DNA of 40,383 bases from positions 1-40,383 of IMG/VR virus record IMGVR_UViG_3300046777_001852; one strand, given 5' to 3'. The stretch is from a virus. Position 1 is the stretch's first letter. Every line of letters begins with the position of its first letter. A program made the position numbers and the translations under genes. This document shows, one piece after another, positions 14,532 to 30,903 of this stretch. A model generated the notes under the pieces. The model saw only the letters and a list, made by a program, of their open reading frames with translations, searched no databases and was not told where the DNA came from.

Positions 14532-14536
14532 ATGTG

Positions 14537-14564
14537 AGAGGAGTTGCATAAACTCCTCTTTTTT
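14537..14564 (+). terminator. Strong intrinsic terminator after cpeT-like gene
   Basis: Perfect 9-bp stem AGAGGAGTT/AACTCCTCT, loop GCATA, T run 14559-14564. Confidence 0.92.
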
Positions 14565-14572
14565 ATTATAAT
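14544..14572 (+). promoter_or_regulatory. Possible sigma70 promoter of the glycan block, overlapping the terminator
   Basis: TTGCAT (14544-14549, two mismatches) in the terminator's stem-loop, 17-nt spacer, perfect TATAAT (14567-14572), 33 nt before the GME start. The only promoter candidate seen for the 16 kb block. Confidence 0.5.
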
Positions 14573-14605
14573 ATATACTACATAAATTAATTCAATTGAT
14601 CATTT

Positions 14606-15742
14606 ATGAGTCAATACAAAAAGACTGCACTTGTTCTTGGTGCAGGTGGCTTTATTGGAAGTCATATGGTTCGCAGATTGCGTTCCGAAGGATACTGGGT
14701 TCGTGGTGTAGACCTTAAGTATCCAGAATTTTCAGAAACCGAAGCAAATGAATTCATTCAGGGAGACCTGAGAGATATGAATTTTGTTCGCCGTGTTCTT
14801 GAATTTAAAGGTGAACAGGGCAATTTTCATAATTCAGTTCCTTATCAGTATATTCTTCCTTTTCACGAAATCTATCAATTTGCTGCCGATATGGGTGGAG
14901 CTGGATTTGTTTTCAGTGGGGAGAATGATGCCGACATTATGCATAATTCTGCAACCATCAACCTCAATGTTTTGGAAGCTCAGAGGCAGATGAATGAAAC
15001 TTTTGGTGAAGAGTCTTCTTGGAAAACAAATACTAGACCATCTATAGATTACACCACTAAAATCTTCTACTCTGGATCTGCTTGTATGTATCCAGAACAT
15101 AATCAATTAGATCCTGATAATCCAGATTGTCGTGAAGAATCTGCTTATCCAGCCAATCCAGATTCGGAATATGGTTGGGAAAAACTTTTTTCAGAAAGAT
15201 TGTATTTTGCCTATCATCGCAATTATGGCATTCCAGTTAGGGTTGCTCGCTACCACAATATTTTCGGTCCAGAAGGAACATGGGAAGGTGGAAGAGAAAA
15301 AGCCCCTGCAGCAATCTGCCGCAAGGTCGCCTATCTTCCAGAGGAAGGTGGAACCATCGAGGTGTGGGGAGACGGCTTACAAACTCGTTCCTTCCTGTAT
15401 ATTGATGAATGCATCGAAGCAACTCGTCGTTTAATGGATTCTGATTTTATTGGACCAGTAAACATTGGTTCCGAAGAAATGGTAACCATTAATCAGTTAG
15501 TAGAAACTGCTGCTAAAGTTGCCAATAAGAATGTAGAGAAAGAGCATATTCTTGATGCACCTCTAGGTGTTCGTGGTCGTAATTCTAATAATGATCTTGT
15601 TCGAGAAAAGCTTGGATGGGATTATTCACAGACTCTTGAGGAAGGTATTCGTAAAACCTATGATTGGATCTCGGATCAAATCGATAAAAAAATGGAAGAA
15701 GAAGATTACTTACTCGCATATCTTAGTACATCACCGTTTTAA
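14606..15742 (+). CDS. gme: GDP-mannose 3,5-epimerase (GME-like)
   Basis: 378 aa extended SDR. Rossmann GAGGFIGSHM near 12-21, AADMGGAGF, catalytic SGSACMYPE with Cys160, Tyr189-x3-Lys193 in EYGWEKL, the GME hallmark NIFGPEGTWEGGREKAPAA with Lys232, WGDGLQTRSF and GVRGRNSNN. These match plant GME, which turns GDP-D-mannose into GDP-L-galactose and GDP-L-gulose. It opens the 19-gene glycan block behind a promoter/terminator junction, so this sugar donor is probably its first committed product. The C-terminal extension after DQIDKK is short. Confidence 0.88.
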   Translation: MSQYKKTALVLGAGGFIGSHMVRRLRSEGYWVRGVDLKYPEFSETEANEFIQGDLRDMNFVRRVLEFKGEQGNFHNSVPYQYILPFHEIYQFAADMGGAGFVFSGENDADIMHNSATINLNVLEAQRQMNETFGEESSWKTNTRPSIDYTTKIFYSGSACMYPEHNQLDPDNPDCREESAYPANPDSEYGWEKLFSERLYFAYHRNYGIPVRVARYHNIFGPEGTWEGGREKAPAAICRKVAYLPEEGGTIEVWGDGLQTRSFLYIDECIEATRRLMDSDFIGPVNIGSEEMVTINQLVETAAKVANKNVEKEHILDAPLGVRGRNSNNDLVREKLGWDYSQTLEEGIRKTYDWISDQIDKKMEEEDYLLAYLSTSPF

Positions 15743-15751
15743 TTTTAAAAA

Positions 15752-16603
15752 ATGAGAATTGCTATACTTGGTTCTAGTGGTCAAATTGGAGCGTATTTGA
15801 CTGATTATCTTCGTGAAAAGGGGCATGAAGTTACAGAGTTTGATGTTGTAAATGGTGATGAACAGGATCTTACTAAGATTCCTAATACCAAACTCATGCA
15901 TGATATTCGTCTTGCAGATTTTGTATTTTTTCTAGCATTTGATGTTGGTGGATCTAGGTATCTGAAAAAGTATCAGCATACTTATGATTTTATTAATAAT
16001 AATGCAAGACTTATGGTAAATGTATTTCAGTACCTTGCTGAATATCGCAAACCATTTGTATTTGCATCATCGCAAATGAGTAATATGAGTTACTCTCCAT
16101 ATGGGGTTATGAAAAGAGTTGGAGAACTTTATACCCAAACTCTCAAGGGACTTACTGTTCATTTTTGGAATGTGTATGGTATTGAGAGTGATCCAGAAAA
16201 GTCTCATGTAATTACTGATTTTATTCGTCGAGGGTTTGAAGAAGGTGAGTTTGAAATGCTTACCGATGGAACTGAAGAACGTCAGTTTCTTTATGCTGAA
16301 GATTGCTGCGAAGCTTTGGAAACAATTATGAATTGTTATTCAGATTTTAAATCGGATGATCCTCTTCATATTACATCTTTCCGAGGTAATACTATTAAAG
16401 AAGTTGCCGAAATTGTTCAGGGTCAATTTAATTTAATTGGAAAGCATGATGTTAAAATTAAACCAGGTCTTGCAAAAGATAGTGTGCAATTAGATAAGAG
16501 AAATCAACCCAATAATTATATTACTGGATGGTGGATGCCAAAAACTAACCTTCAGGATGGTATTGCAAAAGTATTTGAGGCAATGAAAGATGATTGGGTT
16601 TAA
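15752..16603 (+). CDS. NAD-dependent epimerase/dehydratase (extended SDR)
   Basis: 283 aa. Rossmann GSSGQIGAYL at 7-16; FASSQMSNMSYSPYGVMK carries the Ser and YxxxK active site; EERQFLYAEDCCEA is the usual sugar-nucleotide SDR signature. Smaller than the GME and without its Cys motif. Probably epimerises, dehydrates or reduces an NDP-sugar made by the neighbouring enzyme; the exact substrate cannot be told. Overlaps the next gene by 14 nt. Confidence 0.82.
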   Translation: MRIAILGSSGQIGAYLTDYLREKGHEVTEFDVVNGDEQDLTKIPNTKLMHDIRLADFVFFLAFDVGGSRYLKKYQHTYDFINNNARLMVNVFQYLAEYRKPFVFASSQMSNMSYSPYGVMKRVGELYTQTLKGLTVHFWNVYGIESDPEKSHVITDFIRRGFEEGEFEMLTDGTEERQFLYAEDCCEALETIMNCYSDFKSDDPLHITSFRGNTIKEVAEIVQGQFNLIGKHDVKIKPGLAKDSVQLDKRNQPNNYITGWWMPKTNLQDGIAKVFEAMKDDWV

Positions 16604-17435
16604 TCATTTAGGAAATTTGGGCAGACTTGGTAATCAAATGTTCGAATTTGCTGCACTAAAAGGTATTGCAGCAAAACATAATTATGAAATTTGTATCCCT
16701 CCATCATCCCATAAGGGAATTGAAAATTATAGTCTTCACCAATGTTTTAAATTGGACCATATTCCAGTTGGGTATATTGAAGGTGAAAATTATGCCGTAG
16801 AAAGTTCTTTTCATTTTGATGAGAATTTATTTGAAAGTTGTTCAGATGATATAAGTCTCTTTGGATTTTTTCAATCAGAAAAATACTTTCAACATATCTC
16901 AGATGAGATTCGTAAAGATTTTACTTTTCATGACGAACACTTTGGACCATGTAAAGAAATGATGGAATCTGTTGATGGAGAACCAATCATGCTACATGTT
17001 CGTCGTGGAGATCCTAATTTAACTGATCCTCGTGGATTTAAATGGTCTTATACTCAATGTGGAGATCAGCACCCAGTTCAACCAATAGAATATTATGAAA
17101 AAGCACTTTCCGAATTTGACGATGATCAGCCTGTAATTGTTTTTTCTGATTCGCCTGAGTGGGTTAAAGAGCAAGAATTTTTTTCTGGAGATAGATTTTT
17201 AATTTCGGAACCACAAGAAAAATATGCAGATGGTTCCTATACGCCATATGCAGACTTATGCTTGATGTCTTTATGTTCTCATGCTATTATTGCTAATAGT
17301 AGTTTAAGTTGGTGGGGTGCTTGGTTAATTTCAAATCCAAATAAAAAAGTCATCGCACCAAAAATGTGGTTTGGACCTGCTTATGCGGATAAAAATACTA
17401 AAGACCTTTATGCTGAAGATTGGATTGTGTTATGA
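16590..17435 (+). CDS. GT11-family glycosyltransferase A (alpha-1,2-fucosyltransferase-like)
   Basis: 281 aa. GRLGNQMFEFAALKGIA near 12-28, MLHVRRGD (the donor-binding HxRRxD) near 134-141, and IIANSSLSWWGAWL near 233-246 are GT11 hallmarks. GT11 enzymes use GDP-L-fucose; with a GDP-L-galactose-forming GME upstream, GDP-L-galactose is an attractive alternative donor. Closely similar in motifs and length to 27592-28380, an evident paralogue. No membrane segment. Coupled by overlap to both neighbours. Confidence 0.85.
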   Translation: MIGFNHLGNLGRLGNQMFEFAALKGIAAKHNYEICIPPSSHKGIENYSLHQCFKLDHIPVGYIEGENYAVESSFHFDENLFESCSDDISLFGFFQSEKYFQHISDEIRKDFTFHDEHFGPCKEMMESVDGEPIMLHVRRGDPNLTDPRGFKWSYTQCGDQHPVQPIEYYEKALSEFDDDQPVIVFSDSPEWVKEQEFFSGDRFLISEPQEKYADGSYTPYADLCLMSLCSHAIIANSSLSWWGAWLISNPNKKVIAPKMWFGPAYADKNTKDLYAEDWIVL

Positions 17436-18256
17436 ACCGTATTACTGATTATTCTGAATTAAAGACAAGAATTGTTAATTGGATTAAAGATTATACTACC
17501 TCTAATGGTATTAAATCACTTGTAGTAGGAATTTCTGGAGGAATTGATTCTTCCGTTGTTTCTACCCTCTGTGCTGAGACAGGACTTCCTACGTATGTTC
17601 TTTCCATGCCTTTGAATTCAATCAGCTCTCAATCAGATTTGTCTGATGTTCACAGAAAGTTTCTTTCTAAAAATTATGAGAACGTTGTTCCTATGCGGAT
17701 TGATCTCTCATCTGTATATGAGCAGTTTGTAAAGAGCACCAAGTTTTGGTTAGGTGATGAATTTGCAGAAGCAAAGCATCCTTTAGCTAATACTAAGTCG
17801 CGCATTCGTATGCTAACTTTATATCAGATTGCTGGTGATGTTGGTGGTATTGTAGTTGGAACTGGAAATAAAGTTGAAGATTATGGTGTAGGATTCTACA
17901 CTAAGTACGGTGACGGCGGAGTTGATATCGCTCCCATTGCCGATCTTTACAAAACTGAAGTATGGGAACTTGGAAAGCATCTTGGCGTTGATCAACGCAT
18001 TATTGATGCACAACCTACAGACGGTCTTTGGGAAGACGGAAGAACTGATGAAGATCAGCTTGGAGTTTCTTATGAAGATCTTGAGTGGGTAATGGAATCG
18101 GGAATCTTTAATTCTCCTCTAGCTACTCCAAAAAATCTTACTGAATGGGGTGGCAAACCACTTACCGAAGAACAACGAAACGCAGTTCATCAATATTCAA
18201 AATTTAATACTCAAAACAAACATAAGATGGTAGAAATTCCCACATTCAAACTATGA
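17432..18256 (+). CDS. nadE: NH3-dependent NAD+ synthetase
   Basis: 274 aa, matching single-domain bacterial NadE. N-type ATP pyrophosphatase P-loop SGGIDSS at 35-41; GTGNKVEDYGVGFYTKYGD; VDIAPIADLYKTEVW; PTDGLWEDGRTDEDQLG, which is diagnostic for NadE. It amidates deamido-NAD using ATP and ammonia; no glutaminase domain is present. ATG 17432 overlaps the GT11 stop (ATGA). Embedded in the glycan block, it may keep NAD high for the four NAD-dependent sugar enzymes, or counter host NAD depletion; both are inference. Confidence 0.9.
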   Translation: MNRITDYSELKTRIVNWIKDYTTSNGIKSLVVGISGGIDSSVVSTLCAETGLPTYVLSMPLNSISSQSDLSDVHRKFLSKNYENVVPMRIDLSSVYEQFVKSTKFWLGDEFAEAKHPLANTKSRIRMLTLYQIAGDVGGIVVGTGNKVEDYGVGFYTKYGDGGVDIAPIADLYKTEVWELGKHLGVDQRIIDAQPTDGLWEDGRTDEDQLGVSYEDLEWVMESGIFNSPLATPKNLTEWGGKPLTEEQRNAVHQYSKFNTQNKHKMVEIPTFKL

Positions 18257-19398
18257 AAATCGGACTCATTGGCGCAGGAAGACTAGGAATCTGTCTCGCA
18301 CTTCTTATGGAAAATGCGGGATATGATGTTCTTGTTTCTGATATTCGTGAGGATTATGTAGAGAACCTCAATAAAAAAATCATTCAAACTGCAGAACCTC
18401 ATGTTGCAGAACATCTAAAAGAATCAACAAATATTGAAGCAACCACCGATAATCACAGAGTTATCAAAGAGTGCGATATTATTTTTACTTTAGTTGCAAC
18501 TCCTTCTTCTCCCGATGGTTCTTACGATGTAAGTGCTGTTTGGAATGTTGTCCGTGACTTTCAAGAAGTTCAAGATGTGGAAGGAAAGACTCTTGTGGTT
18601 GGATGTACTACCAATCCAGGAGATTGTGTAAGGTTTCAAGATCAACTTAAATCTTATGGTGTGAGTGTAATTTATAATCCAGAGTTTATTGCACAGGGAT
18701 CTATCATCAAAGATCTTACTCATGCAGATATGGTTTTGATTGGTGGTGAGAATGAAGAAGTAATGAATCTTCTTTCCGAAATGTATAAGAAGATTCAAGT
18801 CATCAAACCCAAAGTAAGTTGCATGTCTTTGACTGCTGCAGAACTTGTAAAACTTGCAGTTAATTGTTATCTGACGACTAAGATAAGTTATGCAAACATG
18901 GTCGGTGAAGTGATGACTATGGCTGGACTAGAGGACGAAATTGAAACCGTCTTGAATGCTATTGGAAACGACTCCAGAGTCGGAACTAAATATCTCAGAT
19001 ACGGATATGGATTCGGTGGTCCATGTCTGCCTAGAGATAACAGATCCTTCGCAGCATTTGCAAAAAAATTAGGATTAACTTATAATTTAGGTGAGACAAC
19101 AGATAATTTTAATTACGAACACGCAAAGTTCCTAAGAAATTACTTTATTAAAAAGAATAAAGAAAGTCTTCCATTTTATTTTAGTTACATTTCCTATAAG
19201 AAGGGAACTGATATTTTAACTGAAAGTCAACAATATATTCTTTGTCAAGATTTACTTGATCAGGGGTATACCGTTTATGTTGATGATATTGATTCAATTA
19301 TTAAACAAGTTGATAAGTATTTAATCGAATGGTATGGTGATAGAATCAAGTTTGGTAAACCACCCGAAGGCATTAAAACAATTGCGATTAATTTATGA
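18253..19398 (+). CDS. UDP-glucose/GDP-mannose 6-dehydrogenase-like enzyme
   Basis: 381 aa. Rossmann GAGRLGICLA at 7-16, TLVATPSSPDGSYDVSAV, YNPEFIAQGSIIKD, middle-domain Lys/Asn in ELVKLAVNCYLTTKISYANM, and catalytic Cys258 in YGFGGPCLPRDN. Family members oxidise an NDP-hexose twice to the NDP-uronic acid with 2 NAD+. C-terminal domain is present but short. With GME it implies both a GDP-hexose and an NDP-uronate donor for the downstream transferases. ATGA overlap with nadE. Confidence 0.85.
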   Translation: MKIGLIGAGRLGICLALLMENAGYDVLVSDIREDYVENLNKKIIQTAEPHVAEHLKESTNIEATTDNHRVIKECDIIFTLVATPSSPDGSYDVSAVWNVVRDFQEVQDVEGKTLVVGCTTNPGDCVRFQDQLKSYGVSVIYNPEFIAQGSIIKDLTHADMVLIGGENEEVMNLLSEMYKKIQVIKPKVSCMSLTAAELVKLAVNCYLTTKISYANMVGEVMTMAGLEDEIETVLNAIGNDSRVGTKYLRYGYGFGGPCLPRDNRSFAAFAKKLGLTYNLGETTDNFNYEHAKFLRNYFIKKNKESLPFYFSYISYKKGTDILTESQQYILCQDLLDQGYTVYVDDIDSIIKQVDKYLIEWYGDRIKFGKPPEGIKTIAINL

Positions 19399-19411
19399 GG
19401 ATTTTTAACCT

Positions 19412-20086
19412 ATGAATATTAACACCTATTATGATTCTGAAAAAGATGAACTAATCCATTCTTTTACTAATTCAGAGTTAATTAAGAGAACCTATTCTCA
19501 GGCATATCAAGATCTTTTTGTTCTTTCTGTTCTTGATGGAAAGAAAAATGGAACTTATGTGGAAATTGGATCTAACCACCCAACAGTAGCAAATAACACT
19601 TATGTTATGGAAACTGTTCTTGGATGGAAAGGAGTTTCCTTTGATATTGATGAGGAAATGTGCAAAGAATTTAAAATTCAGAGAAGAAATCCTGTTGTGC
19701 TATGTGATGCAACAACAGTAGATTATTCTAGTATCTTTGAACAATATAGATTGCCTACTAATCCAAAAAGGATTGATTATTTGCAAGTTGATATTGAACC
19801 AGCACCACAGACACTTGCGGCACTTAAAGCAATTAATCTTGATCTTTATAAATTCTCTGTAATTACGTTTGAAACGGATGTTTATGCCGGTGGTAGTAAT
19901 GCAAGGATCGCAGAAGAATCCAGAGAATATCTTCAATCTTATGGATATCAATTAGTTGCAAAAGATGTTATGAATGGTGGAAATTCTTTTGAAGATTGGT
20001 ATGTTGATCCTTCTGTAGTACCTGAAGAAAAATGGAAACCATTTGAAAGTCAATCTGTAGAATGTGTGGAGTTGTTTATCAAATGA
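19412..20086 (+). CDS. FkbM-type SAM methyltransferase
   Basis: 224 aa. YSQAYQDLFVLSVL, GTYVEIGSNHP (SAM motif I) and NNTYVMETVLGWKGVSFDID match the FkbM-like family, which O-methylates sugars. Motif DYLQVDIEPAPQTL is the later SAM/metal region. Likely caps a glycan hydroxyl. ATGA overlap with the following methyltransferase, so the two are made together. Confidence 0.78.
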   Translation: MNINTYYDSEKDELIHSFTNSELIKRTYSQAYQDLFVLSVLDGKKNGTYVEIGSNHPTVANNTYVMETVLGWKGVSFDIDEEMCKEFKIQRRNPVVLCDATTVDYSSIFEQYRLPTNPKRIDYLQVDIEPAPQTLAALKAINLDLYKFSVITFETDVYAGGSNARIAEESREYLQSYGYQLVAKDVMNGGNSFEDWYVDPSVVPEEKWKPFESQSVECVELFIK

Positions 20087-20835
20087 GTTGGACATTACAA
20101 GATAGCCCAGCAAATGCTTATCTAGCATCTTGTAGAAGGGCAGCGCAAGACGATCAGTTTTTCTCCATGTTTAAAAGAGATGGGGCGTATCGATATGTTT
20201 TAGAGCACGTTTCTCCAGAAGAAGGACAAAAATACCTGGATGAAACTGATTTTAATTTCATGGATAAGATCGATGAGATTAAAGAGAATGATTCATTAGG
20301 ATCTCCTTATCTCTATGAATATGAAGGTGTGGGTCAAATTTCTCCAACAACTTTGAGATATATTAAGAATACTTCCGACATTGTTAATAAGTTTGGTACA
20401 GATATTAAGTCTGTTGTTGAGATTGGGGGTGGATACGGTGGATTGTGTAAAGTTCTTAGTTCATTTATTGATTTTGAAAGTTATCTTTTAATCGACTTAG
20501 AAGAGCCAAACCTTCTATCTAGAAAATATCTGAGTCATTTTAATCTTCCAACCTTGTCGCATCGGTCAGAAGAGATTGTAGAGATTGAAGAAAATTTCGA
20601 CCTATTGATCAGTAACTATGCTTTCTCTGAATGTGATAGAGAAACACAATTAGAATATATTGAGAAGTTTGTTAAAAAAACAAATCGAATTTATATGATG
20701 TATAATGACTTTTCTCCAGAAAATATTCATCATCAAGAATTTGCAGATATGCTATCTGATTTATTTGATATTGAATTTTATGCTGATCATGGAGTTGATA
20801 CCGAACCAAAAGTATTATTTGGAACTAGAAAATGA
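20083..20835 (+). CDS. Putative sugar O-methyltransferase A
   Basis: 250 aa from ATG 20083. DSLGSPYLYEYEGVGQISPTTLRYIKN precedes SAM motif VVEIGGGYGGLCKVLS (about 123-138), then LLIDLEEPNLLSRKYL and LISNYAFSECDRETQLEY. This is the pattern of putative sugar O-methyltransferases of polysaccharide loci. The same order and near-identical motifs recur at 26104-26919. No membrane segment. Confidence 0.78.
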   Translation: MSWTLQDSPANAYLASCRRAAQDDQFFSMFKRDGAYRYVLEHVSPEEGQKYLDETDFNFMDKIDEIKENDSLGSPYLYEYEGVGQISPTTLRYIKNTSDIVNKFGTDIKSVVEIGGGYGGLCKVLSSFIDFESYLLIDLEEPNLLSRKYLSHFNLPTLSHRSEEIVEIEENFDLLISNYAFSECDRETQLEYIEKFVKKTNRIYMMYNDFSPENIHHQEFADMLSDLFDIEFYADHGVDTEPKVLFGTRK

Positions 20836-21653
20836 TTTATAGCGTATCAAATTGGTCTGGTAGATTGGGTAACAATATTCAGCAAGTATCTAATGCATTA
20901 ATGCTTGCTGAATATAAAAAAGAAAAATTCTTCCAAAATCTAGATCATGATATCATTAATAAATTTGCTATTGCTTTTGGCGATAGTGATGATAATCAGA
21001 TTGCTTCTGGTAGATTTTATGCATGGGAACCTCTTTTTACCAGCAATAATACCTTTGAAGGTGGTAATGAAATTGGATTGGATAAAGATTATATCTACTC
21101 AAATGTGAGAAGAATTTGTAAAAAATATATCGCTAATAATTTAAATATCCCAGAGTATGATCCACTTCCAGAGGATACGATTGTAATGCACTTAAGAAGT
21201 GGTGATAATTATCATAGGATATTTGATCCTCCCACAGATTATGTTCCTAATCCATTAATATTTTATTTGAATTTAATTGAAGAATTTGAGAATGTAATAG
21301 TAATTACGGAACCTGATAGAAATAATCCTATCCTTTTTGAACTGGAAAAAATTAAAAAAGTAAAAGTTCAAAGTAAATCAGTCCAAGAAGATTTTGCAAC
21401 ACTTATGAGTGCTAAACATATTGCACTCTCTGGAGTAGGAACTTTTGCTATGGCTGCAGCATTATGCTCTTCTAATATAAAATCTTTATATACTACTGAC
21501 TTATTGTTGACTGAACATTTAAATTATAGTATGCTATTCAATACCGATGTAACTGTAAATGTTATGGAGTTGAAAGATTATATTCCCGTTTATCCATGTA
21601 GTTGGAGAAACACAGAAGAACAAAGAAAATTTATAATTGATTATAGGATTTAA
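20832..21653 (+). CDS. Divergent GT11-like glycosyltransferase
   Basis: 273 aa. GRLGNNIQQVSNALMLAEYK at about 10-29 and VMHLRSGD at about 117-124 match the N-terminal and donor motifs of GT11/GT-B fucosyltransferase-like enzymes, but the C-terminal SWWGAWL motif is replaced by SGVGTFAMAAALCSS. Probably a transferase with altered donor or acceptor choice. Overlaps the methyltransferase by 4 nt. Confidence 0.65.
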   Translation: MIYSVSNWSGRLGNNIQQVSNALMLAEYKKEKFFQNLDHDIINKFAIAFGDSDDNQIASGRFYAWEPLFTSNNTFEGGNEIGLDKDYIYSNVRRICKKYIANNLNIPEYDPLPEDTIVMHLRSGDNYHRIFDPPTDYVPNPLIFYLNLIEEFENVIVITEPDRNNPILFELEKIKKVKVQSKSVQEDFATLMSAKHIALSGVGTFAMAAALCSSNIKSLYTTDLLLTEHLNYSMLFNTDVTVNVMELKDYIPVYPCSWRNTEEQRKFIIDYRI

Positions 21654-21654
21654 G

Positions 21655-22647: not shown

Positions 22648-22648
22648 A

Positions 22649-23323: not shown

Positions 23324-23324
23324 T

Positions 23325-24185: not shown

Positions 24186-25132
24186 TTGAAGGTATAGCAC
24201 TTTCTAATTTGTGTGATTATTCTTTTGGAGACCAATCTGGTCAATGGGGGAATATTCACACTTCTTTTATGAAAGATGCTAATTTAAAAAATGTGGAGTT
24301 CGTAAGCAAATTATTTGAAGTAAAGAAAAGTCGTAATTATATGACTTTGTTTATTGATAATATACGCTTATATAATAGAAATATTGCTTCTACTAAAAAG
24401 GAAGATAGACCTTATATTGAATCTTTACTTGAAAGAAATGATCTTTTAGATTTATGTTCTAAGTTTAAAGATATGAATTTTATTATCTTTACAAATTTAG
24501 AAGATACTCCAATTGATGAATTTATTTTTGATAAAATTCCAGATAATGTATTGAGTGTGAACGCAGTTAATGCACTTTCTTTTGGTGGAAAAGTAAATCC
24601 AATTCCATATGGATTGCAACGTGCAATGCATCCTCTGGATAAGCGAGCGGATATAATTCAATATTTTATGGAGGAAAGGGTAGATATAGAAGCATTAAAT
24701 CTTCTGTACGTTAATCATAGTATCAATACAAATCCAAATGAAAGAGAAGGAATTAATGAGATTTTTTCTGAAAAACATTGGGCTTTTGTTGAGAATGAGA
24801 GGGTAGATTTCTACCAGTTTTTATTTAAAATCAAGGAACATAAGTTTATGATTTGTCCAATAGGTAATGCTATTGACTGTCATCGTAATTGGGAAGTCTT
24901 ATATTTAAGGCGAGTTCCTGTTATGAAAAAACATCCATACTTGCAGCATCTTTATAAAGATTATCCTGTTTTATTTGTCGATAGCTATGAGGATGTAACG
25001 GAAGATCTATTAATCAAAAACAATCATCTATATGAGCAGGCTCAGACTATGGATTTGTCTGAATTGACTTTGCCTAATTTTTTTGATAAAATTGTAAATA
25101 AAAATCTTGGGAGAGAAGATGTTAGTAAATGA
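24176..25132 (+). CDS. Exostosin/GT47-like glycosyltransferase
   Basis: 318 aa. C-terminal half HKFMICPIGNAIDCHRNWEVL followed by RRVPVMKKHPYLQHLYKDYPVLFVDSYEDV resembles the exostosin-type GT-B donor domain. The N-terminal half is unrecognised and may bind the acceptor. Family members in eukaryotes add uronic acids, which would fit the dehydrogenase at 18253. No signal or membrane segment. Confidence 0.65.
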   Translation: MELIEGIALSNLCDYSFGDQSGQWGNIHTSFMKDANLKNVEFVSKLFEVKKSRNYMTLFIDNIRLYNRNIASTKKEDRPYIESLLERNDLLDLCSKFKDMNFIIFTNLEDTPIDEFIFDKIPDNVLSVNAVNALSFGGKVNPIPYGLQRAMHPLDKRADIIQYFMEERVDIEALNLLYVNHSINTNPNEREGINEIFSEKHWAFVENERVDFYQFLFKIKEHKFMICPIGNAIDCHRNWEVLYLRRVPVMKKHPYLQHLYKDYPVLFVDSYEDVTEDLLIKNNHLYEQAQTMDLSELTLPNFFDKIVNKNLGREDVSK

Positions 25133-26096
25133 AATGTATCTTGGATCTGGATTGGGGAACCAGATCTGGGCATCAGTTGTTGTTAGAATTATTGCCGAAA
25201 AATTGGGATATGAATACGGCATTAAAGGAAAGGAACTTTGGAAAGGTTCTGGTTGGATGCCTTATTTTTGGGGAAATGAAGTTGTAGGTGGTACTGGACC
25301 AGATGGTGGTCCCCCAGAAACTCTTCCAGAAGGAATTAAATATTATTATCGTGAGAGGCAAGAAAGACAACACACTTGTCCTCATGATATTAATCCGATT
25401 GATCATGGTCTTTTCTTTCTCCCAGATAATACAAAAGTTGATGGTTCTTTTCAGAACATGCTTTATATTGAAGATCGTCGTGATGATATTCGAGAGTGGT
25501 GTAAAGTAGATGAGGATAAAATTATTAGGGATTATTCCCGAGATGATATTTGCGTAATTCATTTTAGAGGAGGTGATTATACTACAGGTCACTCTTTCCT
25601 TCCCCCAAATTATTATCAGATGGCTATGGATCGAATGAAAGAGATTCGTAGTGATATGAAATTTGTTGTAGTAACTGATGATGTTGATACTGCAAGAATG
25701 CATATTCCAAATGCTGAGGTAGTTGGTGCTGCTATTTCTGATGAACCAGGTGGTCCAGACTATAAAATTGGTTGGTATCAAATGAAAGGAGGACCCTTAT
25801 CCATTGATTACAGTATTTTGCATACTGCGAAGAATGCTATCATTTCTGCCTCAACTTTTGCATTTTGGCCAGTTTGGCTTTCAACTGATGCTGAGAATGT
25901 AATCGCTCCAAAATATTGGTTTGATTGGAATATCTCTGATGGTTGGTGGAGACCAGTAGATTCCATTGTTGCAGAGTGGAATTATCTTGATCGAGAAGGA
26001 AATCTCATGATTGGTGACGAATGCTGGCAAGAGTATCGTCATTATAACAAAGTAATTAATCCAGATACATCTGGAGTTATCATTCAATATTCTTAA
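25119..26096 (+). CDS. GT11-like glycosyltransferase, long form
   Basis: 325 aa from ATG 25119, overlapping the previous stop. GSGLGNQIWASVVVRIIAEKLGY near 10-32 and CVIHFRGGDY near 150-159 give the GT11-like core; SASTFAFWPVWLS replaces the SSFSWWGAWL of the standard copies. A long insert between the motifs (about 40-110) is Gly/Pro-rich. Likely another fucosyl- or galactosyltransferase with its own specificity. Confidence 0.65.
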   Translation: MLVNEMYLGSGLGNQIWASVVVRIIAEKLGYEYGIKGKELWKGSGWMPYFWGNEVVGGTGPDGGPPETLPEGIKYYYRERQERQHTCPHDINPIDHGLFFLPDNTKVDGSFQNMLYIEDRRDDIREWCKVDEDKIIRDYSRDDICVIHFRGGDYTTGHSFLPPNYYQMAMDRMKEIRSDMKFVVVTDDVDTARMHIPNAEVVGAAISDEPGGPDYKIGWYQMKGGPLSIDYSILHTAKNAIISASTFAFWPVWLSTDAENVIAPKYWFDWNISDGWWRPVDSIVAEWNYLDREGNLMIGDECWQEYRHYNKVINPDTSGVIIQYS

Positions 26097-26103
26097 TAAA
26101 CAT

Positions 26104-26919
26104 ATGACTATTCATGGATGGATCGCTGCTCCCGATGATGTATTGGGTTCATACGCACAATCTTGTTTTGATTGTGCAAGCGACGAAAGTAAATTTAAAA
26201 ACTTTAAAAAAGATAGTGGGTATAGAACTATCGTAGAAGGAGCTCCAAAATTATTTTTTGATTATTATGTGGAAGCTATTAAATCACATGAGAATTATAA
26301 AACCTTCAAAGATAATCTAGAAAAATTTAGGGTTAATGATACTATTGGTAATCCAGATACCTATGTTGACCCTGAAATTGGTGAGTTTTCTGGATCTACT
26401 TTGAAGTTCGCGTTTAACGCAATTGATATTTTAGAGTTCATTAAAACTCAAGGTAATGAATCTGAAATTAAAAATATTGTGGAAATTGGTGGTGGATATG
26501 GAGGACTTTGCTTGATCCTTTCTAAATTGGTTGAATGGGATCAGTATACGCTTATCGATCTTCCAGAAACCTGTTTATTGGTTGATAAGTACCTATCAAA
26601 TTTTCCCGATATTAAAGATAAAGTTAAAACAATTCCATGTGATAGAGTTGATAAAGAAAACTTTTCTAAAATTGATTTAGCAATCGCAATTAATTCATTA
26701 TCCGAATGTGATCTGGAAACACAATTGAATTATTTTGATAAAATTATTTCCAAGTCAAAATTTTCTTATATTGTAAGAAATCCAGATACTCAAGAAAGAA
26801 TGAATCATCACAAACAAACAATAGATAGTCTTCCAGATAATTTCCTTGTAGACGATTCAAATCGAGTCGAAGAATGGTACAGCAGTAATATTATTGTTTA
26901 TATTAAGAGAGATGATTAA
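26104..26919 (+). CDS. Putative sugar O-methyltransferase B (paralogue of 20083-20835)
   Basis: 271 aa. Shares with copy A the N-terminal PDDVLGSYAQSCFDCASDESKF-like start, NDTIGNPDTY, FSGSTLKFA, SAM motif VEIGGGYGGLCLILS, YTLIDLPETCLL and INSLSECDLETQLNYF. The two copies probably arose by duplication within the block and then split roles, methylating different positions. Confidence 0.78.
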   Translation: MTIHGWIAAPDDVLGSYAQSCFDCASDESKFKNFKKDSGYRTIVEGAPKLFFDYYVEAIKSHENYKTFKDNLEKFRVNDTIGNPDTYVDPEIGEFSGSTLKFAFNAIDILEFIKTQGNESEIKNIVEIGGGYGGLCLILSKLVEWDQYTLIDLPETCLLVDKYLSNFPDIKDKVKTIPCDRVDKENFSKIDLAIAINSLSECDLETQLNYFDKIISKSKFSYIVRNPDTQERMNHHKQTIDSLPDNFLVDDSNRVEEWYSSNIIVYIKRDD

Positions 26920-27583
26920 TCTTCCAACCGTAACACTTTTTTGCATTTCATCTAATAATATTCCCGGTGCAGTTTATGCTCTCCAAAAAAGTATGGAGGG
27001 CATAAACTATGGATCTGTAAAATTAATAACTCATGAAGATCCTGGAGAACTTCCTGATAATATAGAATTTTCAAAGTGTTACGAGATCAAGTCCATTCAC
27101 GATTACAATTATTATTGCATCTATAATCTTACTAAACACATTGATACGGATTATTGTTTACTTGTTCAGCCTGATGGATATGTAATTCGTCCCTGGAAAT
27201 GGGAAGATGAGTGGTTTAGATATGATTATATCGGAGCACCATGGAGGTGGGAAGAGAGATCATTTGTGACCCCATTTGGTGAACATATCGCCGTTGGTAA
27301 TGGTGGATTTTCTTTTAGAAGTAAAAAACTCTTAGATGTCCCAACAAAAGTCCAAGTTCCTTGGGATGTAAACAAAGGAGATTTTTATAAGCACTTTGGA
27401 TATGGATCTACATCAGAAGATGGAAATATCTGTGTGCATAATAGGCATATATATGAAGAGCAAGGATGTGTTTTTGCTCCAGTAGAAATAGCAGCAAGGT
27501 TTTCAAAAGAAAGACACATTTCCCCATATCATGATGGTGTAGACACTTTTGGATTTCATTTTTTTGTTCAAGATATTCGTTGA
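26912..27583 (+). CDS. DUF5672-type putative glycosyltransferase
   Basis: 223 aa from ATG 26912, 8-nt overlap. TDYCLLVQPDGYVIRPWKWEDEWFRYDYIGAPW near 83-115, then AVGNGGFSFRSKKLL, is the DUF5672 signature, a domain found in polysaccharide loci and thought to be GT-A-like; the DG in VQPDGY may replace DxD. Enzyme activity is inferred. Confidence 0.7.
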   Translation: MINLPTVTLFCISSNNIPGAVYALQKSMEGINYGSVKLITHEDPGELPDNIEFSKCYEIKSIHDYNYYCIYNLTKHIDTDYCLLVQPDGYVIRPWKWEDEWFRYDYIGAPWRWEERSFVTPFGEHIAVGNGGFSFRSKKLLDVPTKVQVPWDVNKGDFYKHFGYGSTSEDGNICVHNRHIYEEQGCVFAPVEIAARFSKERHISPYHDGVDTFGFHFFVQDIR

Positions 27584-27591
27584 GGTAAATT

Positions 27592-28380
27592 ATGATTGGA
27601 TACAATCATCTGGGTCGTAATGGAAGACTTGGAAATCAGATGTTTCAGTATGCAGCACTACGAGGTATTGCTGCAAAACATGGATATCAATGGTGTATAC
27701 CGCCTAGTAATTTTACTGTAGAACCAAAAGCTGGTGAAGAAAAAGATCATCAGTTATTTGAAGCATTTAAACTTCCTTCTGTGGAGCATGTTGAAATGCT
27801 CGGAGCAGTTTATCTTGAAGAAAAAACTTTTACATTTGATCAAGAACTATTTGAGACTTGTCCAGATAATGTAAATCTGTATGGATTTTTTCAAACAGAA
27901 AAATACTTTAAACATATTGAGCAACAAATCAGAGAAGATTTTATTTTCAATGATGATATCTGGAATCCATGCAAGGAGATGTTTCAATTTGATGATGCGA
28001 TTTCTTTACATATTCGTAGAAGTGATTATGTCCAAAAACAAGAGTTTCATCCACTATGTCCAATTGACTATTATGAAGTTGCGCTGAGCAATCTCCCCGA
28101 TGATATTCCTGTTCTTATTTTTTCTGACGATACAAATTGGTGTAAAAGACAAAAAATATTTTCCTCTGATAGATTCTTAATTTCTGAATCTGATAGTAAT
28201 TTGGTTGATTTATGTTTAATGTCTATGTGCAACTATCACATTATTGCAAACTCATCATTTTCTTGGTGGGGTGCTTGGTTAGCAAATGGTAAAAAAGTAA
28301 TCGCACCAAAGGTTTGGTTTGGACCAAAAGCCAATCTTGATGATTCGGATCTTGTTCCAGAACATTGGGAGAGAATTTGA
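27592..28380 (+). CDS. GT11-family glycosyltransferase B (paralogue of 16590-17435)
   Basis: 262 aa. GRLGNQMFQYAALRGIAAKH, ISLHIRRSDY and IIANSSFSWWGAWL are intact. The start MIGYNHLGRNGRLGNQ and the NLYGFFQTEKYFKHI segment are nearly the same as copy A, showing recent duplication. Copy A has RRGD with a longer insert after it, this one RRSDY, so acceptors may differ. Confidence 0.85.
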   Translation: MIGYNHLGRNGRLGNQMFQYAALRGIAAKHGYQWCIPPSNFTVEPKAGEEKDHQLFEAFKLPSVEHVEMLGAVYLEEKTFTFDQELFETCPDNVNLYGFFQTEKYFKHIEQQIREDFIFNDDIWNPCKEMFQFDDAISLHIRRSDYVQKQEFHPLCPIDYYEVALSNLPDDIPVLIFSDDTNWCKRQKIFSSDRFLISESDSNLVDLCLMSMCNYHIIANSSFSWWGAWLANGKKVIAPKVWFGPKANLDDSDLVPEHWERI

Positions 28381-29138
28381 TGCCTGAATTTTCAATTGCT
28401 ATTCCTACTCATGATCGAGGAGAAAATGGTCCAGTATGGATGAGGGAATTACTTGATAGTATTAAATTGCAAACCTTTGCAGACCTTGAGATTGTTGTAT
28501 CTGATCAAAGTAAAGATGATTTAATTTTAGACGTTTGTAAAGAATATTCTGAGACTTTTGATTTTACTTATGTTAGATATGAGGGCAGTATTCCCTGTGA
28601 AAATATTAACATCGCACTAGAAAACTGCAAAGGTAGAATAATCAAAATCATGTTTTCTGACGATTTATTCATCGTAGAGAATGCATTAGAATTGATTAAA
28701 AAAGAATATGATGAAACTAATTGCAAGTGGATGTTCAGTGGATTTTGTGGAACCTCTGATGGAAAAAATTTTTATGATTCAAAAGTTCCCATGTGGACTG
28801 ATTACATGCTTGAAGGGAGAAATCTTTTAAGTAGTCCTTCCGTAGTTTCATTTTTAAACGAATGTAAAGTTGATTTTGATGAAAATCTTAAACTTCTTTT
28901 AGATACGGATTTTTATCATAGAATGCGATGGAAAAATGGAATGCCGCATATTATTTCTGAAGTTTTAGTTGCAAATCGTGATCATAATGACAGAATTAGT
29001 AGCCATGCAACATCTCAATATGATGCATATGTCCAACATCCGGAAGGGGGATGGGCAGTAAACAGATCTGAATTAGAATACTTAGAAGCTAAGCATAAAA
29101 AATTCTGTAGAAATAGAAAGTATCCAGATGAGAATTGA
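28380..29138 (+). CDS. GT2-family glycosyltransferase
   Basis: 252 aa from ATG 28380 (TGATG junction). FSIAIPTHDR near 4-13, LEIVVSDQS, and KIMFSDDLFI with the DD metal site near 97-106, then FSGFCG. A GT-A fold inverting transferase. Donor unknown. Overlaps the next gene by 11 nt. Confidence 0.82.
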   Translation: MPEFSIAIPTHDRGENGPVWMRELLDSIKLQTFADLEIVVSDQSKDDLILDVCKEYSETFDFTYVRYEGSIPCENINIALENCKGRIIKIMFSDDLFIVENALELIKKEYDETNCKWMFSGFCGTSDGKNFYDSKVPMWTDYMLEGRNLLSSPSVVSFLNECKVDFDENLKLLLDTDFYHRMRWKNGMPHIISEVLVANRDHNDRISSHATSQYDAYVQHPEGGWAVNRSELEYLEAKHKKFCRNRKYPDEN

Positions 29139-29937
29139 TTTAACAGAAGCAACATTTATTGTTCCGATTCGCATTGAGTCTTCTGATAGACTTCGAAATG
29201 TAATTACATCTACTGCTTTTCTTTTAGAGAACTTTGATACAAATATTATTATCAAAGAGGTTGATTCTGAATCAATCTTTCAAAGAGATGCTCTTCCAGT
29301 CTTAAAAGATATTCTGGATGTAAATGTAGAAGTTCATCATATTTTTGAAAAAAGTGATGAACCATTGTTTCATCGTCAGAAAGTTCTGAATGAAATGATC
29401 GTTGCGGCAGATACAGAAATAGTGGTTAATTATGACTGCGATGTTTTGCTTCCATTGGATTCTTATCATGAAGCATATCAATCAATTCTTCACCATACTC
29501 ATGATGTAATCTATCCATATGGGCAAGGAATGTACCAAAAACAAGTTAGAGCAACTGATGAAATAGTTTCTAATTTTTTGCAAACTGGAGATTTTGCATA
29601 TCTTGAAGAACATTCCAATCTCCATACTTCTGATTTTGGATGGGCTCAATTTTTTAATAGAAAAGTTTATATTGATGGGGGCATGGAAAATGAAAACTTT
29701 AAAGCCTATGCCCCAGAAGATAAAGAAAGATTTTACAGATTCACAACCTTAGGATATAATGTTGGTAGAATCAATAACTTTGTTTATCATTTGGAACACG
29801 CTAGGGGAGAAAACTCCTGGTTTAATAACCCACACATGCAAAGTAATAATAATGAGTGGGAAAAAATTCAAAAAATGAATGCATCACAATTAAAAGAATA
29901 CTATTCCAATCAATCTTACTTAAAGAAATATGGATAA
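29128..29937 (+). CDS. GT-A glycosyltransferase (galactosyltransferase-like)
   Basis: 269 aa. FIVPIRIESSDRLRNV near 10-25, IVVNYDCDVLLP with DxD near 97-108, and SDFGWAQFFNRKVYIDGGMENE with KAYAPEDKERFYRF near 170-206, the WGxEDxE-like acceptor region of beta-galactosyl or GalNAc transferases in altered form. Soluble. Overlaps the GT25 gene by 8 nt. Confidence 0.68.
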   Translation: MRIDLTEATFIVPIRIESSDRLRNVITSTAFLLENFDTNIIIKEVDSESIFQRDALPVLKDILDVNVEVHHIFEKSDEPLFHRQKVLNEMIVAADTEIVVNYDCDVLLPLDSYHEAYQSILHHTHDVIYPYGQGMYQKQVRATDEIVSNFLQTGDFAYLEEHSNLHTSDFGWAQFFNRKVYIDGGMENENFKAYAPEDKERFYRFTTLGYNVGRINNFVYHLEHARGENSWFNNPHMQSNNNEWEKIQKMNASQLKEYYSNQSYLKKYG

Positions 29938-30715
29938 AAATAAGTCTGCTTATAAATTAAAAAACCTTGGTCCAATATATTATTTAAATCTTGACGGACA
30001 ACCCGAAAGAAGAAAATATATGGAAGATCAATTTGCCTATTGGGAAATTGAAGACTATACCAGGATTTCTGCTTACGATGGTAGAACTGATGATTTGAGT
30101 GATATTATTTCTGGTAAGTATCCAGATAATATGACTTCGGGAGAAATTGGTTGTATTACCTCACATTTAAAAGCAATTAAACATTGGATGGAAACATCTG
30201 ATAGTCCTTATGCAATTATCATGGAAGATGATTGTAATATGGATCTTGTTAAATATTGGGATTTTACCTGGAGTGATTTTTACGCACATATTCCTTATGA
30301 CTGGGATGTTGTACAAATAGCAATTATTTGCACGGGAGACCTTCATGTAAAATTACATAAAAGATTTGTAAATGACTTCTCTACAGCTTGCTACTTAATT
30401 ACTCGCCATCATGCAGAGAAACTTTTAAGACTTCATACCAGGGGAGATAAGTATAAACTTGATAATGGATGTAAACCACGTCCTGTTGCTGATGATGTAA
30501 TTTATAATTCTGGAAATACCTTTAGTATTCCTTTATTTTTTTATAGAGTGGAATTGGGATCTTCTATCCATCCAGAACATATTGATGCATTTCATAAAGC
30601 TAATCATGATGGATTGCTTAATTTCTGGCAGCAAAGGGGAGCTCAGATTGATATTAAAGAATATATGAATTATGATCCTTATCTTGGTAGGATAACAGAA
30701 GCAAGTGAATCTTAA
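29930..30715 (+). CDS. GT25-family glycosyltransferase
   Basis: 261 aa. YYLNLDGQPERRKYME near 17-32, SGEIGCITSHLKAIKHW and AIIMEDDCN (EDD) near 98-106, with STACYLITRHHAEKLL, are GT25 features. GT25 includes bacterial LPS galactosyltransferases and procollagen galactosyltransferases. Last gene of the block. With prolyl-hydroxylase-like oxygenases in the same window, transfer to hydroxylated protein side chains is worth considering. Confidence 0.85.
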   Translation: MDKNKSAYKLKNLGPIYYLNLDGQPERRKYMEDQFAYWEIEDYTRISAYDGRTDDLSDIISGKYPDNMTSGEIGCITSHLKAIKHWMETSDSPYAIIMEDDCNMDLVKYWDFTWSDFYAHIPYDWDVVQIAIICTGDLHVKLHKRFVNDFSTACYLITRHHAEKLLRLHTRGDKYKLDNGCKPRPVADDVIYNSGNTFSIPLFFYRVELGSSIHPEHIDAFHKANHDGLLNFWQQRGAQIDIKEYMNYDPYLGRITEASES

Positions 30716-30786
30716 CCTTCCCTTAGTTGACTTCCCTGTGAGATCGTAGTAGTATATACGCAATCTTAAGTTTTGCTTAAGACGCT

Positions 30787-30793
30787 CTAAATA
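30787..30793 (+). promoter_or_regulatory. Late-promoter-like box
   Basis: CTAAATA, 7 nt before the 30801 micro-ORF. A CTTAAG-TTTTG-CTTAAG hairpin (30765-30781) lies just upstream and may mark the end of the glycan transcript, although no T run follows. Confidence 0.45.
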
Positions 30794-30800
30794 CTCACGC

Positions 30801-30884: not shown

Positions 30885-30903
30885 TACAAAACACAAATCT
30901 TTT

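Follow-up and report, generated by a model that had tools for sequence, protein, structure and literature searches.

Large LPS gene clusters were described in the cyanophages S-SSM7, P-SSM2 and S-SM2, where they account for about 72–85% of the extra genome size in S-SSM7 and P-SSM2; the authors of that study left open whether the clusters function, with "stuffer DNA" as an option (Sullivan 2010, PMC3037559). These clusters, as well as that of S-SCSM1 (2022), lie in a T4-like setting with tRNAs and pstS or hli genes close by, and comprise GDP-mannose 3,5-epimerase, SDRs, glycosyltransferases of the families GT2, GT11 and GT25, and methyltransferases. Virus-coded glycan machinery is also described for the chlorovirus PBCV-1, whose transferases are mostly predicted to be soluble, some members having predicted transmembrane domains (PMC9614988). 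One of them, A075L, is a beta-xylosyltransferase acting on the N-glycan of the major capsid protein Vp54, with UDP-xylose as donor and the O4 of L-fucose as acceptor, whereby Arg158 and Arg208 stabilise the leaving group (PMC11571054).

We analysed a 40-kb piece of DNA (40,383 nucleotides, as a whole referred to as the window) of a T4-like cyanomyovirus infecting ocean cyanobacteria, whose NrdB is 86–87% identical to the NrdB of S-SM2 and Bellamy. A block of 19 consecutive plus-strand ORFs spans positions 14606–30715, with seven tRNAs upstream, pstS downstream and, within the window, no adjoining structural genes. It joins the known cyanophage LPS gene clusters (S-SSM7, S-SM2, P-SSM2) as a new member, sharing with them the setting and gene content given above and being set apart by 19 contiguous genes with a GT17-A075L-GT11-DUF5672 unit and a nadE-ugd pair.

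Gene content of the block and its relatives

The first-pass annotation had described a block of nearly all overlapping or adjacent genes, in agreement with the ORF list, where all 19 ORFs overlap or sit at most 13 bases apart, and all 19 reading frames are open. Several of the listed TTG starts are probably too early, with a likely ATG a few codons downstream as judged from the translations, so that the real overlaps are smaller than listed. Twelve of the 19 genes scored above the Pfam curated cut-off (Epimerase and Glyco_transf_11 three times each, NAD_synthase, UDPG_MGDP_dh, Glyco_transf_17, DUF5672, Glycos_transf_2 and Glyco_transf_25), and an NCBIfam search covered the first ten. Together with PDB and fold comparisons, these searches confirmed the earlier inventory of four sugar-nucleotide enzymes, one NAD synthetase, about ten glycosyltransferases and four methyltransferases, three of the assignments (22649–23323, 26104–26919 and 29128–29937) being weak.

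Gene 1 (14606–15742; this and all following features on the plus strand) is identified by its sequence as a GDP-mannose 3,5-epimerase (GME; PDB 2c59, E 1.4e-81), which would make GDP-L-galactose and GDP-L-gulose. Its residues C160, Y189, K193 and K232 align with C145, Y174, K178 and K217 of 2c59, which we take to be the catalytic Cys, Tyr and two Lys of GME; these positions are identical in all six aligned phages, and 37 phage records contain matches to gene 1 at E ≤1e-60. The other sugar-nucleotide enzymes are a short SDR epimerase or decarboxylase (15752–16603; Epimerase, E 5.6e-24; weak, mixed PDB matches), a UDP-glucose 4-epimerase-like SDR (21637–22647; Epimerase, 1.3e-43; PDB 4zrm, E 3e-39) and a Ugd of the UDP-glucose 6-dehydrogenase type (18253–19398; UDPG_MGDP_dh, NCBIfam and motif), which retains the catalytic-Cys region GFGGPCLPRD and whose C-terminal domain matches Pfam weakly.

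Pfam assigned three glycosyltransferases to GT11 (16590–17435, E 5.7e-22; 25107–26096, E 7.8e-10; 27592–28380, E 1.1e-25) and one each to GT17 (23310–24185, E 1.2e-25), GT2 (28365–29138, E 1.1e-10), GT25 (29930–30715, E 5.8e-14) and the putative glycosyltransferase family DUF5672 (26894–27583, E 3.2e-17). A further gene with a DCD motif is weakly GT2-like (29128–29937; E 0.014, below cut-off); none of the 12 members of its family had a Pfam match at 0.01, nor was there a PDB match. The product of 20832–21653 is fucosyltransferase-like according to its predicted fold of the FUT8/POFUT1/NodZ type (AlphaFold2 pLDDT 87.4; Foldseek E 4e-4; VIA Z 10.5, rmsd 4.1, 207 aligned), and the resulting four fucosyltransferase-like enzymes fit the GDP-L-galactose-type donors expected from gene 1. 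Among the methyltransferases, the sugar O-methyltransferase 20062–20835 passes TIGR04371 (69.4 bits, cut-off 44) and has the stretch VEIGGGYGGLC in common with the weakly matching 26104–26919 (Methyltransf_12, E 0.0037, below cut-off). Gene 19412–20086, itself without a Pfam match at 0.01, is FkbM-like via its relatives, eight of 13 family members matching PF05050 (best E 1.6e-6), and 22649–23323 is a weak Methyltransf_24 match (E 0.013, below cut-off).

The gene at 24176–25132, previously called exostosin-like, is homologous to A075L (GT114) both by sequence (PDB search with the family profile, E 2.3e-30, covering the C-terminal half) and by fold (Foldseek E ~1e-12; VIA Z 20.2, rmsd 2.9, 242 aligned). 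Its Arg190 and Arg237 align with R158 and R208 of A075L in a hand-counted register (offset 2) and are invariant in all 23 family members; D61, a candidate counterpart of the catalytic base Asp73 of A075L, is invariant in the same 23, but lies outside the sequence alignment. The likeness to PBCV-1 extends to a GDP-L-sugar route (for GDP-L-fucose in PBCV-1), a Ugd and methyl caps. The two differ in that the host of the block is a bacterium, and in that some of the PBCV-1 transferases have predicted transmembrane domains.

Related phages, where the first-pass annotation had proposed to look for the same block, indeed carry clusters of this kind: those of S-SSM7, Bellamy, S-SCSM2R and Sf-FS3 have tRNAs and pstS or hli genes in their vicinity, and that of P-TIM68 lies downstream of talC. 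Both nadE and ugd are present in the clusters of S-SSM7, S-SCSM2R and Sf-FS3, where GT11 and GT25 are annotated in part. S-SM2 contains a gene 1 homologue, with no ugd match (all 34 matching records listed) and no nadE match among the matches listed (30 of 43); P-SSM2 was absent among the matches listed for block genes. Gene content varies much between phages. The median dN/dS among relatives was 0.063–0.294 in 18 of the 19 gene families, and this purifying selection speaks against the published "stuffer DNA" option.

The nadE-ugd pair

The block encodes an ammonia-type NAD synthetase, NadE (17432–18256; listed ORF start 17420, likely ATG 17432; NAD_synthase, 9.8e-49), which passes TIGR00552 (174.8 bits, cut-off 63.65) and stays under the stricter cut-off of NF010587 (188.4 versus 255). 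Its ATP-pyrophosphatase motif SGGxDS is present, in the invariant form SGGIDS. In cyanophage-type loci, nadE lies almost always immediately upstream of a UDP-sugar dehydrogenase gene, and it adjoins Ugd-family genes even where Ugd is only 24–30% identical to that of the window. The NadE lineages beside Ugd-family genes separate in the tree, and the lone phage NadEs examined form one other clade. Likewise, nadE overlaps the UDP-sugar dehydrogenase gene in the glycan region of the pelagiphage HTVC008M, which also holds a carbamoyltransferase and a methyltransferase, but differs from the block in its Ugd type (25% identity), in a NadE of another lineage and in having one gene annotated as glycosyltransferase within the 14.7 kb examined. 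Judged by these sequences, the pair formed repeatedly, with either partner being replaced.

The most likely role of NadE, which accompanies Ugd in loci of both the cyanophage and the pelagiphage type, is to provide NAD+ to the dehydrogenase. NadE enzymes adenylate a carboxylate and then form an amide with ammonia; NaAD and UDP-GlcA alike belong to the nucleotide-diphosphate carboxylates. The enzyme might thus amidate the carboxyl of UDP-glucuronate from the adjacent dehydrogenase, yielding a uronamide sugar donor instead of NAD+, which would be compatible with either main acceptor discussed below. The pairing with divergent Ugds in separate NadE lineages, and the position of the lone phage NadEs in another clade, would suit such a role. 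We nevertheless consider it unlikely, as viral and cellular NadEs have 63 near-invariant residues in common and differ at three near-fixed sites, the cellular homologue was the sole full-length NadE match in all 14 genomes tried, and the ATP-site and nicotinate-region motifs of phage NadE are as in its cellular relatives.

Membrane steps and expression signals

The absence of evident signal peptides and membrane helices in the block was upheld by a hydropathy scan of the 19 proteins in 19-residue windows, whose highest value, 1.71, falls on the Rossmann strand with which Ugd begins; exported neighbours reach 1.65–1.75, which leaves little contrast. The Pfam matches of the 19 genes included no flippase, polymerase, initiating transferase, ligase or exporter. 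In order to extend the search for such genes beyond the block, as had been proposed, 11 large or complete records of relatives were searched alongside 14 controls. None of the 11 matched Wzx (PF01943; controls 13/14), WbaP (PF02397; 10/14), WecA (PF00953; 12/14), Wzy/WaaL (PF04932; 10/14) or the ABC2 exporter (PF01061; 14/14). Like the O-antigen and capsule loci that depend on Wzx/Wzy or an ABC exporter, the block unites nucleotide-sugar enzymes with several glycosyltransferases in a single operon; unlike in such loci, neither the block nor these relatives yielded a match to a flippase, polymerase, initiating transferase, ABC exporter or ligase family. Phage cytoplasmic glycan kits without export parts of their own are already known from related phages.

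The first-pass annotation had reasoned that LPS loci need Wzx, Wzy, WecA and a ligase, and had therefore placed the sugars on a soluble acceptor. This premise holds for O-antigen loci, but not for core/LOS oligosaccharide, which is built up on lipid A on the cytoplasmic side of the membrane before host MsbA exports it. Missing export genes hence do not separate lipid from soluble acceptors; the A075L homology adds weight to a soluble acceptor.

A wcaG RNA (RF01761; 13983–14080; cmscan 103 bits, E 7e-19), a candidate cis-regulatory element, lies directly upstream of cpeT, which precedes the block and, by reading the sequence, starts at about 14085–14091. It was present in all seven chosen related loci, in five of them within 80 bases of gene 1, is annotated in S-SCSM2R and is reported in S-SCSM1. 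An intrinsic-terminator-like hairpin found by sequence scan (14536–14560) closes the cpeT unit, followed by TATAAT at 14567–14572 upstream of gene 1. No late-type motif was found in the window; in Bellamy, this motif lies within 110 bases of 11 of 16 structural genes versus four of ten other genes (one of ten non-structural genes at ≤70 bases), and two of 11 gene 1 leaders (L003 and L006) carry it.

The acceptor of the glycan

Based on the gene content, we infer that the SDR and Ugd enzymes would convert host GDP-mannose and UDP-glucose to GDP-L-galactose-type and UDP-glucuronate-derived donors, from which the soluble transferases and the methyltransferases would assemble, within the host cytoplasm, an oligosaccharide that is short, branched and O-methylated. 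The acceptor may be host lipid A-core, which would be elongated at the inner leaflet before host MsbA exports it, and the changed surface of the infected cell could lead to superinfection exclusion or masking. We tentatively favour this reading of the block as a T4-like marine cyanophage glycan cassette, placing the host envelope slightly ahead of a virion protein and regarding DNA as unlikely. It is favoured because of the gene content, the like clusters in named cyanophages, the purifying selection and the lack of the five membrane-step families in relatives, as well as the hairpin and TATAAT before gene 1 with no late-type motif, the published S-SCSM1 virion list (no named glycosyltransferase among 45 proteins, 13 of unknown function) and the LPS reported for two marine Synechococcus strains, with Glc, GlcN and GalA but no heptose or KDO (PMC4515613). 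Host-surface alteration by cyanophage LPS genes is an idea relayed in a 2010 review (PMC2984593); no experiment on altered host LPS was found in the literature examined. Host envelope synthesis may, however, be too slow for remodelling to have much effect before a lytic cycle ends, early-type promoters are compatible with virion acceptors, given that PBCV-1 transferase genes are expressed early according to a giant-virus review (PMC9614988), and the two late-type leaders also tell against host lipid A-core.

A serious possibility is that a structural protein of the phage serves as acceptor, with the soluble transferases assembling the glycan directly on it in the cytoplasm, in the manner known for the major capsid protein of PBCV-1. 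The mix of GT17, A075L-like, FUT-like and FkbM genes recalls chlorovirus capsid glycosylation, and the A075L homology with its two conserved arginines, the PBCV-1 parallels and the lack of a known membrane step in the relatives all point this way; glycosylation of a mycobacteriophage capsid by phage glycosyltransferases has also been proposed (PMC11256854). A single homologous transferase does not fix the acceptor, though, as GT114 is also found in bacteria and eukaryotes (PMC11571054), the block does not adjoin structural genes, and no glycosylated cyanophage virion protein was found in the literature searched. Slightly less likely is a full phage counterpart of giant-virus capsid glycosylation, in which cyanophages and some other phages would decorate their virion proteins in the cytoplasm with a branched, O-methylated glycan that contains L-galactose, using the chlorovirus-homologous GT114, with the nadE-ugd pair providing or amidating the uronate donor. 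T4, a distant relative, glucosylates its DNA, and the block has about ten transferases and UDP-sugar enzymes; glycosylation of DNA bases or free nucleotides, included in the earlier soluble-acceptor proposal, is nonetheless very improbable, since the 2010 review reports no evidence of modified nucleotides or DNA glycosylation in cyanomyoviruses (PMC2984593), and ten transferases plus methyl caps far exceed what base modification needs. The T4 DNA glucosyltransferase families (AGT/BGT; PF11440, PF09198) were found in none of the 11 relatives, which weighs little as the controls were silent too. Least credible is passenger DNA filling a large head: this option, left open by Sullivan 2010 (PMC3037559) and in line with the variable gene content, is already largely refuted by the purifying selection, the 19 open frames, the conserved modules and the maintained nadE-ugd pairing.

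New in this analysis are the purifying selection on relatives of the block, the identification of gene 1 as GME, the homology of the exostosin-like gene to A075L and the nadE-ugd pairing via partner replacement. Selection in nearly every family says that LPS clusters work, a point left open in 2010, and the GT114 link to chloroviruses offers a testable handle on the attachment target of the glycan, as does the recurrent pairing of nadE with different UDP-sugar dehydrogenases on the need of phages for an NAD synthetase beside Ugd. Both possible outcomes, a reshaped host surface or glycosylated virions, matter for how abundant ocean cyanobacteria are grazed, and for receptor recognition and superinfection.

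The glycan block and its source phage

The window is the entire virus record of 40,383 bases, and the genomes of its relatives are far longer. Judged from the sequence, its source is a cyanomyovirus of the T4-like type. NrdB shares 86-87% identity with the S-SM2 and Bellamy proteins, and outside the block the window encodes a partial nrdA, nrdB, gnd, a plastoquinol terminal oxidase, a CpeT-like gene, pstS, ferredoxin, peroxiredoxin, two carbamoyltransferases, endolysin-like genes and seven tRNA genes. ORF calls, Pfam and NCBIfam bore out the first-pass annotation's description of the 19 plus-strand genes at 14606-30715, and a simple hydropathy scan likewise found no convincing signal peptide or membrane helix in any of the 19 proteins. 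The assignments of 22649-23323, 26104-26919 and 29128-29937 are weak, 12 family members of the last having no Pfam match at 0.01 and a PDB match also being absent, and the PDB matches of the short SDR at 15752-16603 point to no one specificity.

Gene 1 (14606-15742) is a predicted GDP-mannose 3,5-epimerase, which aligned to PDB 2c59 at E 1.4e-81, keeps at the aligned positions a Cys, a Tyr and two Lys that we take to be catalytic, and has counterparts of 76-85% identity in five named phages. Its product, GDP-L-galactose, would fit as donor for the fucosyltransferase-type enzymes of the block, which are three GT11 enzymes and one FUT8/POFUT/NodZ-like enzyme (20832-21653). The AlphaFold2 model of the latter (pLDDT 87.4) matched the FUT8/POFUT/NodZ-like fold in Foldseek at E 4e-4 and with VIA at Z 10.5 (rmsd 4.1 over 207 residues), heptosyltransferases coming next at Z 9.6.

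Several genes around the block were also inspected. Between the block and pstS (30847-32406, and 32526-33503) lies a gene for an SLH-OprB outer-membrane porin, higher in GC; porin homologues occur in 23 of the best 80 viral loci of the NadE scan, and the S-SRM01 copy is 74.5% identical. Upstream of it, at 30765-30781, stands a CTTAAG-N5-CTTAAG repeat resembling a Pho box, and the porin may thus work together with pstS in phosphate uptake. Outside the block, at 3563-5287 and 11029-12528, are two Nol-like carbamoyltransferase genes that differ from each other; since such a gene is near or adjoins nadE-ugd in Bellamy and HTVC008M, both may be part of the block's glycan pathway. An 81-residue protein without Pfam match (12789-13034) has homologues, mostly 5' of glycan genes, in 38 of the best 80 loci of the GDP-mannose 3,5-epimerase scan and in 20 of the best 80 of the NadE scan. 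The 607-residue Thr-rich protein at 36766-38589, for which neither Pfam nor PHROG gave a match at 0.01, has a likely signal peptide and, read by eye, an outer-membrane-barrel-like C-terminus ending in F; its homologues were found in 2 of the best 80 NadE-scan loci, L088 and L115. Finally, the best PHROG label of the SegE GIY-YIG endonuclease at 2049-2492 (PF19835, E 5.3e-51) is 'NAD synthetase', a label that the S-SSM7, Bellamy and P-TIM68 records carry on a gene matched to it by size and place. Published counts of cyanophage 'NAD synthetase', such as the 24/153 tallied as a metabolic gene in part of PMC10452541, may therefore refer to this SegE-type gene.

Related loci and the nadE-ugd pair

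In S-SSM7, S-SCSM2R and Sf-FS3 the order is gene-1 epimerase, more SDRs, nadE, ugd, glycosyltransferases, and pstS or hli genes; Bellamy and P-TIM68 have arrangements related to that of the block. Each scan for related loci was counted over its best 80 (21 in one scan), and one contig may recur across scans. Content was modular across the best 80 viral loci by NadE and the best 80 by gene-1 epimerase. In a set of 167 loci, which includes the window's own piece, the named phages and one locus from a cellular bin (L007), and in which some contigs were counted in both scans and many loci are only partial, those with the A075L-like gene (24176-25132) also had the GT17 gene (23310-24185) in 41/44 cases, the DUF5672 gene (26894-27583) in 42/44 and the GT11 gene of 25107-26096 in 42/44; the respective numbers for loci lacking it were 6/123, 7/123 and 8/123. 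The 642-kb uncultured jumbo phage LR756502.1 (L324) encodes two A075L-like proteins (50 and 45% identity), and GT17-, DUF5672- and GT11-like genes, judged from their N-termini, adjoin its own nadE-ugd pair. On another related phage contig (L229) we noted an abiF RNA match at 3549-3585 near tRNA genes (41.3 bits, cut-off 37).

With NadE (17432-18256) as query, a Ugd-family gene was present in 80/80 viral loci (best 80), on the same strand within 2.5 kb in 79. The Ugd query (18253-19398) returned nadE in 77/80 loci (best 80; many contigs are common to both sets), upstream every time and at a distance of at most 50 bases in 63/77, 51-1500 in 7 and more in 7; in the three loci without nadE the contig starts at most 1.3 kb from ugd. 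Among the matches listed, 11 annotated phages matched NadE across 94% or more of the query with at least 46% identity (15 records, of which S-SSM7 and S-SSM6a are near-identical). All 11 had a Ugd-family match, by coordinates directly adjacent in 10 and with one gene between in Bellamy; the identity of the paired Ugd to that of the window falls to about 25% in Bellamy, AG-345-E15 and HTVC008M and is 30% in LR756502. As counter-cases, four further records among the matches listed matched NadE across 80% or more of the query, at 34% identity or less, and had no Ugd match, the 735-kb phage records LR756501 and LR756503 had a partial NadE match and no Ugd match, and 19/34 Ugd-matching records were absent from the NadE matches listed (30 of 43). 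Nine phage loci (L338-L346) carried nadE without a Ugd-family gene, and in seven of them a glycan-type gene was not evident from ORFs inspected by eye. When viral NadE sequences were clustered at 80% identity, 37/44 clusters were paired, the 7 unpaired ones all falling within these nine loci. The best 80 cellular loci held the pair in L007 only, and none of the best 80 from the NadE genome-contig scan is titled Synechococcus. L007 is contig NZVE01000057.1, binned in a Rhodobacteraceae MAG; because it bears a phage-type block from gene 1 to GT25 together with nadE-ugd, it was taken as a phage contig and is probably a misbinned cyanophage-like one.

This association needs a functional explanation. 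In a NadE tree of 90 rows, the cyanophage-type (100/99) and pelagiphage-type (100/100) sequences formed separate clades, the latter nested in a group (100/99) that also holds the cellular NadE of SAR11 and a lone-phage NadE clade; LR756502 NadE sits on a long branch, its placement unsure. Since separate NadE clades stand beside Ugd, NadE in the pair has at least two origins, and either the pair would have formed at least twice or NadE would have been replaced in place. As to its role, we favour supply of NAD+ to the dehydrogenase; a limited search of the phage and lipopolysaccharide literature found no paper joining NAD synthetase to UDP-glucose dehydrogenase. The bolder option, that paired NadE amidates a uronate to a uronamide sugar, we regard as unlikely. 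Position 127 is Ser in paired sequences (88/88, 13/13 and 1/1) and Ala in 6/9 lone phage and 72/79 cellular sequences, and a stricter convergence filter left two positions only, both unremarkable; such residue differences do not suffice for proposing a new substrate. The uronamide reading is weakened because the cellular homologue is the sole full-length NadE match in 14/14 chosen genomes (completeness unstated; one, G009, holds an extra 70-residue NadE piece at a contig end) and because viral and cellular NadE have 63 near-invariant positions in common.

The leader of the block

A wcaG RNA (13983-14080, 103 bits) abuts cpeT in the window. It was found in 7/7 chosen related loci, about 65-80 bases 5' of gene 1 in five, with a terminator-like hairpin between RNA and gene 1 in four leaders inspected by eye, and is annotated in the S-SCSM2R record. 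According to part of PMC2864571, wcaG RNAs occur in cyanophages and marine metagenomes, where they stand before exopolysaccharide genes or high-light genes. A terminator-like hairpin and a TATAAT also lie 5' of gene 1 in the window. TATAAT occurred in 8/11 gene-1 leaders and a late-type motif in 2/11 (L003 and L006, the latter by eye), the window's leader lacking it; for hand-chosen Bellamy genes, this motif was located within 110 bases of 11/16 structural genes and 4/10 others (1/10 within 70). These results point weakly to early or middle expression. In 13600-32700 the scans counted 73 sigma-70-like sites where 76.5 were expected, which is uninformative, and 21 terminator-like sites where 8.7 were expected; ATAAATA, with eight plus-strand and no minus-strand copies in the window and about 9.3 expected per strand, is uninformative alone. 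Transferase genes of PBCV-1 are early too, as stated in part of PMC9614988, and expression timing therefore does not settle the acceptor.

Acceptor and function

As the window is only a fragment, we searched the full records of 11 relatives for export families, namely five isolate genomes (Bellamy, S-SSM7, P-TIM68, S-SCSM2R, Sf-FS3) and six IMG/VR contigs of 138-284 kb, completeness unstated, two of which (those of L133 and L136) are near-alike around the block. Wzx (PF01943), WbaP (PF02397), WecA (PF00953), Wzy/WaaL (PF04932) and the ABC2 exporter (PF01061) each matched in 0/11, with positive controls matching in 10-14 of 14 genomes. The absence of export genes reported by the first-pass annotation thus holds and extends to the relatives, in whose records these five families revealed no Wzx/WecA/ligase set elsewhere. 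Its step from there to a soluble acceptor fails, because core oligosaccharide, too, is built in the cytoplasm, on lipid A, and leaves through MsbA, a host protein.

We tentatively favour the host envelope as acceptor. Marine Synechococcus LPS, which contains Glc, GlcN and GalA, with heptose and KDO absent according to part of PMC4515613, is a possible target. A virion protein is a somewhat less probable yet serious candidate, on account of the A075L-like enzyme at 24176-25132. Its predicted model (pLDDT 79.6) matched A075L of PBCV-1 at a Foldseek E of about 1e-12 and with VIA at Z 20.2 (rmsd 2.9, 242 aligned; human exostosin next at 12.5), and its family profile hit PDB sequences at E 2.3e-30, all three matches being A075L. 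R190 and R237, corresponding to A075L Arg158 and Arg208, are invariant in 23/23 family members. RXYLT1_C (Pfam) covers the C-terminal region in 23/25 relatives at E 0.01, the window's own score being under the curated cut-off. A075L, founder of GT114, is described in part of PMC11571054 as the beta-xylosyltransferase of the Vp54 capsid N-glycan. DNA is a very improbable acceptor; T4 DNA glucosyltransferase families had no match in the 11 relatives, the controls being equally silent.

That the block is without function seems more improbable still. We calculated dN/dS (NG86) for homologous pairs among relatives, window genes excluded, with at most 40 sequences per family and dS of 0.1-1.2. Medians were 0.063-0.294 in 18/19 families; the 26104-26919 family had no usable pair, and those of 20062-20835 and 22649-23323 had two pairs each. 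The block's highest single value was 0.524, and every value is well under 1, the values being rough since pairs are non-independent and dS is near saturation. PMC3037559 leaves in doubt whether LPS cluster genes are functional or stuffer DNA, and the low dN/dS among relatives gives a partial answer to that doubt.
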